Shown here piece after piece: positions 35,292 through 40,408 of a stretch of DNA of 64,000 nucleotides. The stretch's first letter is position 1; every line of letters begins with the position of its first letter. The notes under the pieces are model-generated. The model was not told the origin of the DNA. It searched no databases and saw only the letters and a list, made by a program, of their open reading frames with translations. Where the stretch lies: assembly GCF_011300685.1 (NCBI RefSeq), contig NZ_CP049864.1, positions 405,001-469,000 of the forward strand. Direction: 5' to 3'. The DNA is from Lysobacter sp. HDW10. Its GTDB lineage: Bacteria > Pseudomonadota > Gammaproteobacteria > Xanthomonadales > Xanthomonadaceae. The position numbers and the translations under genes are program-made.

Positions 35292-36072
35292 GCACACTGC
35301 TGGCCACGTACCCACGTGCGTCATTGCCGAGGACGAAACGCTGTTGCGTCAAGCACTGGTCACGGAACTCGCACAGGCGTGGCCTGAACTATCGATCGTC
35401 GCGGAATGCGAAGACGGTGCGAGTGCACTGGAGGCGATTGCCGAACACCGACCGGACGTCGCATTTCTAGACATTCGCATGCCGGGCCTCACCGGTATTG
35501 AAGTGGCCGCAGCGGCGGCGGAAGCGAGCCCCGCTACACACATCGTGTTTGTGACCGCGTACAACCAATACGCGATCGAAGCGTTCGATAAAGGCGCTGT
35601 GGACTACCTATTGAAACCGGTTGAACCGGAACGATTGGCGGCCACGGTGGCGCGCTTGCAAGCCCGAAGCACGCAACCCGATCTTTCATCATTGAAGTCA
35701 CTGTTTGATCGATTGGGCCCACTGCCTCGGTCGGCCGGCGCGCCCGAACCTCTGACTTGGCTCACCGCCAGCGCAGGGCGTGAAACACGTTTGGTCTTGG
35801 TGGAAGACGTGATCTATTTTCGCGCCGATCAGAAGTACACGACTGTCGTGACTGCAGAAGGAGAATCCTTGCTGCGAACGCCGCTCAAAGAATTGATGCC
35901 AAGGCTTGATTCAAGTGCCTTCAAGCAAATTCACCGATCGACCATCGTCAACCTACGTGCCATTGCAGGCATTGTGCGTGACGAATCCGGCCGAGGCACG
36001 GTGCGCTTGCGAGGACGCGACGAGACGCTGCAAATTAGCCAACCCTTCATGGCGTTGTTCAAGACCATGTAA
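35284..36072 (+). CDS. LytTR-family response regulator
   Basis: A 262-residue regulator with a receiver domain (phospho-acceptor D63 in VAFLDIRMPG, the conserved VTAYNQYAIEAF and LLKPVEP lysine) and a C-terminal LytTR DNA-binding domain (DVIYFRADQKYTTVVT, FKQIHRSTIVNLRAI). It is translated from an overlap with the kinase gene. LytTR regulators usually bind pairs of direct repeats upstream of surface or lysis-related genes; I did not find a convincing repeat here. Confidence 0.93.
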   Translation: MHEHTAGHVPTCVIAEDETLLRQALVTELAQAWPELSIVAECEDGASALEAIAEHRPDVAFLDIRMPGLTGIEVAAAAAEASPATHIVFVTAYNQYAIEAFDKGAVDYLLKPVEPERLAATVARLQARSTQPDLSSLKSLFDRLGPLPRSAGAPEPLTWLTASAGRETRLVLVEDVIYFRADQKYTTVVTAEGESLLRTPLKELMPRLDSSAFKQIHRSTIVNLRAIAGIVRDESGRGTVRLRGRDETLQISQPFMALFKTM

Positions 36073-36099
36073 AGCGCATTGCGCTTGTGGAGATATGAA

Positions 36100-36465
36100 A
36101 TGAACTTTTTCGCACAACTGGTGACATGGCTACAGATGCTGTTGTCCATGGCAGGGGTTTCGCTGTTCGGCACCGAATACAGCAGTAAGATTTCGGACAA
36201 TCATCACACGGCGCTTTACAGCACCGCGACTGAATACAAAGGTGTCGCGACGTTCAACTGCCGCGAAAGCAACACGGGTGTGTGTCATTACACCTTGTAT
36301 AGCGAGGCGTGCACGCAAGCCGACGCATGCAATGAAAAACCTATGCGCGTTTTCACGTTGAAGCGCGGTGAGTCTAAAAAGGTCGAAGGCATTTCAAAGT
36401 TTCATCCTTGTGTGTCTTTGGATGCAAACCCTTTGGGGCCGGATTGCGAAGGGTTGACGCCCTGA
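36100..36465 (+). CDS. Small six-cysteine protein of unknown function
   Basis: A 121-residue protein starting with a hydrophobic stretch (MNFFAQLVTWLQMLLSMAGVS) that may be a signal or anchor. The rest carries six cysteines (54, 62, 71, 77, 104, 116), which would suit three disulfides in an exported protein. TGGAGATATGAA precedes the ATG. It is 27 bases downstream of the LytTR gene and probably in the same transcript. I recognise no family. Confidence 0.65.
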   Translation: MNFFAQLVTWLQMLLSMAGVSLFGTEYSSKISDNHHTALYSTATEYKGVATFNCRESNTGVCHYTLYSEACTQADACNEKPMRVFTLKRGESKKVEGISKFHPCVSLDANPLGPDCEGLTP

Positions 36466-36686
36466 CCCGAGAACCGAACATCTGTTGGGACTCGCCTAGC
36501 TGGCAGGTATTCGCGCTTTGGTAGTTCAGGGCGCAACGCATTCGGCACCTCTAGCGAAGCGATTGCCAACTTTTGTTTTTTGATTTGGAAACGCTCCCCG
36601 CCAACACCTGTACACGTAGTCGCTGCCGTGGCTCACCGAATGTGCCGATCGGTTCCCGCAGTGACGGCTCGGCGATTACAAAAGCA
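36466..36686. other. Intergenic region, no gene seen
   Basis: About 220 bases between the convergent small-protein gene and the lipoprotein operon. I see no clear terminator, repeat or conserved coding frame; the short frames here are neither conserved-looking nor preceded by ribosome sites. Confidence 0.5.
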
Positions 36687-37310
36687 TTAACGGCCGGCAC
36701 GTCCAGCAAGCAACGAATCACGAATACGCGCCGCCGCCTCTCTTGTTTTTGCCAACTCGTCTGTGCGCTTGTCGAGATCGTACATTGCTTGCGCGGCGAA
36801 GGGACTCCAATCACCTGACGCTCGGTTGGCCGCGACAACCTTGCCGATTCGCACAATCATCTCTTCCTGATTTTCGATCTCGTTTTCCTTTTCCCGTAGA
36901 TCTTTGAGAACGCCGTTGTTCAAACGCGCGCCAATCGCCCCCAGTGAAAGCTGCATGCTCACCACGGTGTCATAGACAGAGTCCGCGTCATCGCCACCCG
37001 AGGGAAGCAAGTCGTATTCGACGGGCGTCGGCATGGCCAATCCCTCGACGTCGAACTGGATAATCGCCCTGCAACTTGACCGTTCACGTTCTTCGTCTAG
37101 TCGCGTCGCCTCGAAACCCTCAATTCGAGAAATTTTGACCAACCCGCTGTCAAGCGGATCGTACTCACCCTGCCTCAGGAACTTGCGAACGTCATTGTTG
37201 ACGTAGGCGGCGAGACTCGCTTGCGTCGCTGGCGTTGCACAACCGCTTTCCCTTTTGCCGCACGCACTCAGAAAGAGCACCGCGACACAGATCAAAATCC
37301 GTAGTCCCAT
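36687..37310 (-). CDS. Lipoprotein of unknown function (paralogue of the next gene)
   Basis: A 207-residue lipoprotein with lipobox LFLSAC and lipidation at C17. It lines up residue for residue with the neighbouring lipoprotein: C17, C24, a central GLVKISR-FEATR stretch and C80-RAIIQFDVEG. The C-terminal 80 residues are charged and likely coiled coil (KEKENEIENQEE, LDKRTDELAKTREAA). It lies 13 bases after its paralogue. No known family comes to mind. Confidence 0.75.
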   Translation of the reverse strand: MGLRILICVAVLFLSACGKRESGCATPATQASLAAYVNNDVRKFLRQGEYDPLDSGLVKISRIEGFEATRLDEERERSSCRAIIQFDVEGLAMPTPVEYDLLPSGGDDADSVYDTVVSMQLSLGAIGARLNNGVLKDLREKENEIENQEEMIVRIGKVVAANRASGDWSPFAAQAMYDLDKRTDELAKTREAAARIRDSLLAGRAGR

Positions 37311-37323
37311 TGAATGTTCCTTT

Positions 37324-37896
37324 TTATTGGGTTGAAGACGTGCGCGGCGCAACTGACCCTTTTGTGATGCGCTCGCGCATCGCTTCCAGCTCCGCTTCCG
37401 CAGATTGCACTTTCTGCGTATGCGAATCACCCAGCGCGGCCCGCTCGTCCGGAGAGAGCTCAAACCGAAGGTGAAAAATCTCGCGCTCCTTTTTACGGAA
37501 TTCGCCCATCGGGCTCTTCATCAGGAGCTTGTCCAACCGCTCCATGGGCCAACGACTCGTTTTTCGAAACAAGTCTTCGCCAGACTGCGACACCACCAAA
37601 TAGCCGAAATCATCTTCGACCGTCGTTCCGGCAACATCGAATCGAATCGTGGCGCGACACACCGCCGCATTGCCATTACCGCCTTTGGAGTCCGTTTCGA
37701 TATTGTCGAACCGCACATTCGATACCAAGCCCGCGGCAAAAAGATCGATGCGCGACTTCCAATACCCATAGTTGACTGCTTCGACAAAGGCGTCCTTCAT
37801 CTTTCCACGCATGTATTGGCTATCGCAGGGCGTTGCCATGCGCGTGCAACCCGTAAGGACGCCAAGGGCGATTCCGACAACCAAAATCCGATTCAT
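37324..37896 (-). CDS. Lipoprotein of unknown function (paralogue of the previous gene)
   Basis: A 190-residue lipoprotein with lipobox GVLTGC and C17 lipidated. C24 and C80-RATIRFDVAG sit at the same positions as in the downstream lipoprotein, showing a gene duplication. The C-terminal third is charged and helical (FRKKEREIFHLRFELSPDERAAL). Its ATG directly follows the TAG of the upstream gene, so translation is coupled. Function unknown. Confidence 0.75.
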   Translation of the reverse strand: MNRILVVGIALGVLTGCTRMATPCDSQYMRGKMKDAFVEAVNYGYWKSRIDLFAAGLVSNVRFDNIETDSKGGNGNAAVCRATIRFDVAGTTVEDDFGYLVVSQSGEDLFRKTSRWPMERLDKLLMKSPMGEFRKKEREIFHLRFELSPDERAALGDSHTQKVQSAEAELEAMRERITKGSVAPRTSSTQ

Positions 37897-38649
37897 CTAT
37901 GGGCCAAACGTGCGTCTTTCACCGTTACGCTCCAATGTTTGCAATGCTCGGGAGACACTCAGTCTCTGCGAAGCCGCTTCGTCGTCGGTGAGCTGTCGTT
38001 CGCGATAGGCGACGCCCAACAACCGTCCATCCTCTTCGAGTGTCATGCAATCTTCGAAAGTGTGACCTTGCACAATGTCCCGGCAAGCCACCACCTTGAA
38101 AGTTGATTTCTTACCGAATTTTCCGAATTCCAACGCATCTTCCAAGGGGACGGAATGTACCTTGTAAATCCTGTCTGACCACGCGGATTTGCCGGAAACG
38201 CCTGCACGCGTAGCCGCGTCGTCGTTTTCGAGATGGGACACCAAGATGAAGCGAGTTTTGTACACGGTCGCCTGAAACTCGCGCACCGCTTCCCCGTTTT
38301 GTGGAATGGTGCGCCAGATCCCTTTCAATTGCTTGTTGAATGCTTTCGCACGGCGTGCCTGCAACCAATCGTTCAGGGCAGACTTGCGCATGTCGGCCTC
38401 TGCGTCTTTGACGTCCTCGACGTAAGCGCTTTTTTGTTCCGCAGTCATCCGCCCGTGCGAAGCCTCACGATCGGCGACTGCCGCTCCGTACTGACCGTTG
38501 GCTCCCGAATCGTTTCGGTACTTCCCCGTCGCGTAAACCATGGCACCGACGAAATAGATCACATACAACGCGCTGACGACAGCAAGACAGAGCGCAATTC
38601 TTGGCGCCGTCGATGCACCTTTCGGTGCACGTCCCAAATTTTTTGACAT
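37897..38649 (-). CDS. Membrane-anchored protein of unknown function
   Basis: A 250-residue protein with one N-terminal membrane helix (about 18-40) and a mostly polar remainder rich in Asp, Glu, Arg and Lys, with two late cysteines (VACRD, FEDCMT). It is the first gene of a three-gene operon with the two paralogous lipoproteins and abuts the second one. The start at 38649 is chosen because the membrane anchor follows; in-frame codons upstream lie inside the terminator region. Not recognised. Confidence 0.7.
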   Translation of the reverse strand: MSKNLGRAPKGASTAPRIALCLAVVSALYVIYFVGAMVYATGKYRNDSGANGQYGAAVADREASHGRMTAEQKSAYVEDVKDAEADMRKSALNDWLQARRAKAFNKQLKGIWRTIPQNGEAVREFQATVYKTRFILVSHLENDDAATRAGVSGKSAWSDRIYKVHSVPLEDALEFGKFGKKSTFKVVACRDIVQGHTFEDCMTLEEDGRLLGVAYRERQLTDDEAASQRLSVSRALQTLERNGERRTFGP

Positions 38650-38689
38650 GCAGCTCGCTCCCCCGAGGCTTATGCAGTCAATATTAACG

Positions 38690-38721
38690 AAGAACCCCCG
38701 CAATCGCTTGCGAGGGTTCTT
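38690..38721 (-). terminator. Terminator after groEL
   Basis: A long stem AAGAACCC(C)CGCAA / TTGCG(A)GGGTTCTT around a TCGC loop, 35 bases beyond the groEL stop. It should separate groEL from the downstream operon. The U tract on this strand is short (TTCTTCG), so it may be leaky. Confidence 0.75.
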
Positions 38722-38755
38722 GTCTTTGGGTGTTGCTTGTAGCGTTCCGGCCGGA

Positions 38756-40408
<1,653 letters not shown>

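Follow-up and report, generated by a model that had tools for sequence, protein, structure and literature searches.

A putative envelope operon of three orphan genes at the 3′ end of groESL in Lysobacter sp. HDW10

Taxonomically restricted, or orphan, genes form a general class in bacteria; in the envelope such genes are common, though few have been read. The three adjacent genes described here (g1, g2 and g3) likewise turned up in a single genome of all those searched, and they differ in making up an operon that combines an internal duplication with envelope signals. Other described groups come near to a single member of the trio, the predicted lipoprotein g2. With cystatin/NTF2-like folds (affimer/adhiron proteins, the CaMKII hub, the PBP2a N-terminal domain and VirB8-like OrfG), the predicted helix and four-stranded sheet of g2 align over 79–97 residues. 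This is a resemblance of fold only, with no sequence match of g2 to these proteins in the PDB and Z no better than 7.6, and g2 differs from them in its helical tail and in being predicted as a lipoprotein. The Cor-type lipoproteins (phrog_1119), a superinfection-exclusion family, share with g2 a short lipoprotein signal region. HpuA (PF16960) is a lipoprotein whose profile matches residues 18–96 of g2 below threshold. The published HpuA structure consists of a beta-sandwich and a C-terminal beta-barrel (PMC4703857).

The window, that is, the whole stretch of DNA analysed, comprises 64,000 nucleotides. The features of the locus are as follows.

36097..36465, plus strand: small ORF adjoining lytR, the far-side flank of the block
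36466..36686: spacer past g3, 221 nt
36466..38690, minus strand: 2.2-kb block missing from the sister genome G003
36687..37310, minus strand: g3, predicted lipoprotein of 207 aa
37324..37896, minus strand: g2, predicted lipoprotein of 190 aa
37897..38649, minus strand: g1, predicted bitopic membrane protein of 250 aa
38690..38721, minus strand: groEL terminator hairpin, 14 pairs

The coordinates and spacing given for a three-gene operon in the original prediction proved exact. The three frames are contiguous on the minus strand and tightly linked, as had been proposed: the TAG stop of g1 directly abuts the ATG of g2, and g2 and g3 are separated by 13 nt. The trio had also been placed between the groEL terminator and the LytTR genes; it does lie there, but the small plus-strand ORF at 36097–36465 intervenes before the LytTR gene. 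This ORF encodes 122 aa with a hydrophobic N-terminus and several Cys, and a Pfam match at E ≤ 1 was not found for it. For the other four of the five neighbours scanned, Pfam identified groES, an FAD oxidoreductase, a histidine kinase and a LytTR regulator. The adjoining groEL was identified from its own sequence.

Coding scores of the g1, g2 and g3 frames are positive (0.085, 0.110 and 0.116, respectively), yet all 16 reference genes taken from the window score higher (0.149–0.379). For comparison, two plus-strand ORFs lying antisense to these frames scored −0.052 and −0.160. A longer g3 start at 37463 codes poorly (0.014 vs 0.116), and we therefore favour the lipoprotein start at 37310. That the frames are non-functional or open by chance would be in keeping with scores under all reference genes and with the lack of homologues, which means that purifying selection is not measurable. 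However, three long contiguous frames on the same strand with positive coding scores, two lipoboxes, one transmembrane segment, paired cysteines and the paralogy of g2 and g3 speak against this explanation, and we regard it as extremely unlikely.

The first gene had been described as membrane-anchored, and g1 indeed contains a single hydrophobic stretch, in which the 19-residue windows scoring over 1.6 start at residues 13–24. A short basic N-terminus is followed by a transmembrane segment at about residues 17–40 and by about 210 aa that are predicted to be periplasmic. Of its cysteines, Cys21, Cys189 and Cys201, the latter two fall in the predicted periplasmic part. The g1 protein is probably located in the inner membrane with its C-terminus in the periplasm. 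The AlphaFold2 model of g1 has a pLDDT of 43 and is unusable. The protein is unrelated to g2 or g3, with 404 and 783 of 1000 shuffles, respectively, scoring as well as the real pair, and DUF6915 was rejected as its family at no more than 15.7 bits against a cut-off of 27.

The other two genes were predicted to encode lipoproteins that arose by duplication and have diverged C-terminal tails, and all of these points held in our comparisons. The lipoboxes LTGC17 in g2 and LSAC17 in g3 both fit the canonical pattern [LVI][ASTVIG][GAS]C. Lipoprotein sorting is governed by the rule of Asp at position +2, and since neither predicted protein has Asp there, both are probably carried to the outer membrane. 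Besides Cys17, they share Cys24, Cys80 and the motif CRAxIxFDV (CRATIRFDV in g2 and CRAIIQFDV in g3). Identity over full length is 21%, and BLASTP of the full pair gives E = 8e-7. Alignment of mature residues 18–115 scores 67, compared with a shuffle mean of 24.9 (sd 4.4), a score reached by 0 of 1000 shuffles; in a further control with 235 other open stretches from the window, the top score was 47. The tails are not alike, with a score of 28 vs 24.9 and 233 of 1000 shuffles as good. Judged from sequence, the paralogy of g2 and g3 is real, above chance and confined to residues 18–115.

The fold of g2 was predicted with AlphaFold2 from two sequences, with g3 as the sole second row of the alignment. 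Mean pLDDT of the model is 76, and the ten-residue blocks from 21 to 120 have means of 64–89. The model comprises an alpha-beta4 domain at residues 27–112, with a helix at 27–44 and strands at 58–69, 77–88, 91–104 and 107–112, followed by a helical tail within residues 118–180. In the model, Cys24 comes before the helix and Cys80 is part of a strand, a placement that would be compatible with a disulphide. The top pdb_via matches of this model are cystatin-derived affimers/adhirons (Z 7.1–7.6 over 79–84 residues, rmsd 2.6–3.1), followed by CaMKII hub, PBP2a N-terminal and VirB8-like domains; a Z under 8 may mean merely a common arrangement, and the 7.6 of g2 is within the stated noise range. 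Foldseek returned nothing from the PDB at E ≤ 0.001, the best matches being PBP2a chains at E 0.003, and nothing at E ≤ 0.001 from a viral structure library. With a two-sequence model and Z in the noise range, the cystatin/NTF2-like resemblance of g2 would be one of shape and not of family membership. A literature search joining cystatin-like fold, lipoprotein and periplasm gave no match.

The original prediction had found no recognised domain in the trio, and the profile libraries agree: neither Pfam nor NCBIfam matched g1, g2 or g3 above curated cut-off. PHROGs gave nothing better than E 0.02 for the trio, and PDB sequence searches with each of the three and with a g2/g3 profile returned nothing below E 0.29. 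DUF5053 was rejected for g2 at E 0.19, below cut-off. Rfam returned a sub-threshold c-di-GMP-II match inside g1 on the opposite strand (E 0.79) and nothing else.

The strongest family trace is that of g2 to HpuA, at E = 4.7e-4 and 20.0 bits for the whole protein and at E = 1.5e-4 and 21.6 bits for the mature domain alone. Three sub-threshold HpuA matches occur across 17 genus genomes, and that of g2 is the best (18.6 bits). An HpuA-type surface lipoprotein would capture nutrients by binding a protein of the host or the environment. However, the 18.6–21.6 bits of g2 remain below the curated cut-off of 29.7, the paralogue g3 has no match, and sub-threshold HpuA matches are likewise present in two further genus genomes and a Thermotoga maritima control. 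In addition, the published HpuA fold (PMC4703857) is unlike the alpha-beta4 domain plus helices predicted for g2 (pLDDT 76, two sequences), and an HpuB-like TonB-dependent receptor is absent among the five neighbours scanned, which are adjacent genes only. HpuA was thus rejected as the family of g2, and we consider the nutrient-capture reading very unlikely.

Homologues were sought in overlapping genome samples, in all of which the window's own genome is present and is left out of the counts. None of the three genes has a match in 16 genomes of the same genus, which are included in a set of 59 relatives. In that set, g2 was found in 0 of 59 and g3 in two, both at chance level; g1 was found in one, judged chance, and in none of 296 family and 320 class genomes. 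With a g2/g3 profile, neither the 368 class genomes (threshold E 1e-4) nor the 348 phylum genomes (0.005) yielded a match; at 0.05, 6 of the 397 order genomes did, with E values of 0.004–0.04. Scans of genome contigs with g2 and g1 gave nothing, nor did viral contigs yield a match to g1, to g3 or to the profile, and tblastn of all three genes against plasmids and phages was likewise negative. The pattern scans among these searches detect only close relatives, so that distant homologues may be missed.

The individual candidates from these searches were rejected one by one. The g1 match in L004 (E 0.0065, 27% over 98 columns) lies inside a 189-aa frame at 1441–2010 on the minus strand, which we take to encode a sigma-factor-type regulator. 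The g3 match in L006 (E 0.008) covers residues 10–77 and falls in a frame that also has a lipoprotein signal. Two of the six profile matches from the order sample, L043 and L045 (profile positions 1–46 and 3–51), are other lipoproteins, matched at and just after the signal. L007, L044, L046, L047 and L048 (E 0.011–0.0415) were realigned and dropped as chance; L044, of which 44 columns matched g2 at E 0.003 when seven loci were searched, has a frame of 58 aa with a stop. The trio is without credible homologue in any other genome sampled, and on this distribution it appears as an orphan presence/absence block. The original prediction had named a lack of conservation as a set as an outcome that would refute it, and the result went against a conserved system: in the genomes searched outside this one, no credible match to the set or to any of its genes turned up.

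Comparison of groEL 3′ flanks of 16 genus relatives (L027–L042) with the window revealed the same context in G003 alone, where GroEL is 99% identical. In G003, groEL is followed by the small ORF (57% identity), lytR (85%), the histidine kinase (89%) and the FAD oxidoreductase (88%), without the trio. The distance from terminator to small ORF is about 100 bp of other sequence in G003 compared with 2.2 kb in the window, and homology of the two breaks just inside the terminator T-tract and beside the small ORF stop. A short inverted sequence, presumably REP-like, is located at the trio's site in G003 (L027, about 155–200, groEL turned left). In L029, L030 and L039, an FAD oxidoreductase lies near the groEL flank in the other orientation. 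Mechanical ORF lists of all flanks but that of G003 give other frames after groEL, and the site looks plastic in the genus. At the block edges themselves, only short repeats of chance length were found.

An old lineage module, with proteins evolving too fast for recognition and a loss of the trio in G003, would agree with the rapid evolution of the neighbouring small ORF, at 57% identity vs 85–89% for lytR and histidine kinase, and with the codon fit of the trio, which is of the right kind despite being low. However, tblastn against the 16 flanks gave no g1 match and nothing better than E 0.4 for g2/g3, and block DNA searched against 17 genus genomes found itself and, in the 16 others, nothing longer than about 40 bases (best E 6e-4). 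We therefore consider an old module rather unlikely. A gain of the trio is favoured over a loss in G003 by these comparisons, with polarity drawn from one same-context genome. The block has a GC content of 0.552 compared with a mean of 0.574 (sd 0.012). In tetranucleotides, 7 of 310 overlapping window segments deviate at least as much as the block, one of them being its own position. Segments over groEL deviate more than the block, and composition thus argues weakly for a foreign origin.

A foreign origin is also part of a further explanation, in which the trio is an orphan exclusion or immunity module left by a mobile element since gone, with lipoproteins that shield phage receptors or rival-toxin targets and with g1 as the anchor. 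Orphan status, the homology break at the terminator and duplicated lipoproteins with diverged tails are consistent with such a module, as is the trace resemblance (E = 0.21) between g2 and Cor, a family active in superinfection exclusion. However, the Cor match is limited to residues 1–35, the signal-peptide region; the sole PADLOC match, of g2 to CARF9--CARF_HEPN_TM (E = 0.0034, residues 92–167), is mostly in the tail and was judged a chance match. Moreover, no toxin, integrase or phage domain was found in the five neighbours scanned, and plasmids, phages and viral contigs are without match; new kinds of defence system would escape such searches. These results make an exclusion or immunity function improbable, though still worth weighing.

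The position of the trio suggests how it may be transcribed. The start of g1 lies about 40 nt downstream of the groEL terminator hairpin, which is strong (−22.6 kcal/mol) and passes a simple terminator scan. The bases after the terminator G-run are TTCTTCGT. Past this G-run, the window has 5 T in 8 bases vs 6–7 in the 15 scored relatives, making its T-tract the poorest of 16 scored flanks (L031 gave no site); when T was counted at the end of the best hairpin, the window has 5 and the 16 relatives 1–9, and the window is not singled out. No sigma-70-like site was detected in 35900–39000, where 1.2 are expected by chance for the one promoter type scanned, so that this negative result carries little weight. 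The 221-nt spacer after g3 contains no minus-strand terminator-like site by simple scan, and the spacer at 36466–36590 folds no better than shuffles (z −1.1). As a hypothesis, read-through from groESL would plausibly be the simplest source of the trio transcript. The poor T-tract of the groEL terminator is the nearest lead toward a stress role.

Taken together, we suggest a species-restricted envelope module that was gained at the groESL 3′ end, or lost or diverged beyond recognition elsewhere, and we give this reading about an even chance. Of the functions originally offered, a lineage-specific envelope module is best supported, and nothing directly supports immunity or stress. Within this reading, the trio would most likely be a periplasmic complex gained recently at the 3′ end of groESL. 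Then g1 would anchor a complex in the inner membrane with its C-terminus periplasmic, and g2 and g3 would be located at the outer membrane, each with a Cys24–Cys80 disulphide in an alpha-beta4 cystatin/NTF2-like domain, as modelled for g2. The two lipoproteins may bind each other and/or g1 via these domains and their divergent helical tails, and so form a complex reaching from the inner to the outer membrane, with a different partner for each of its two related arms. Most of the transcript may derive from groESL read-through past a weakened terminator, in which case heat or envelope stress would raise expression of the trio. A bolder version would be a new kind of periplasm-spanning complex, with duplicated and diverged cystatin-like arms on one anchor, that captured groESL transcription by landing in, and weakening, the terminator, giving a newly gained, promoterless envelope-stress module wired to heat shock; we offer this bolder version as speculative and decidedly unlikely.

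On present evidence, we see in the trio a good example of an orphan, for which a clean site of comparison exists, and not a new type of system. The near-empty sister site together with the visible change in the groEL terminator makes the gain of expression by a new operon directly testable. If the heat-shock link were true, the trio would represent capture of a chaperonin operon by read-through.
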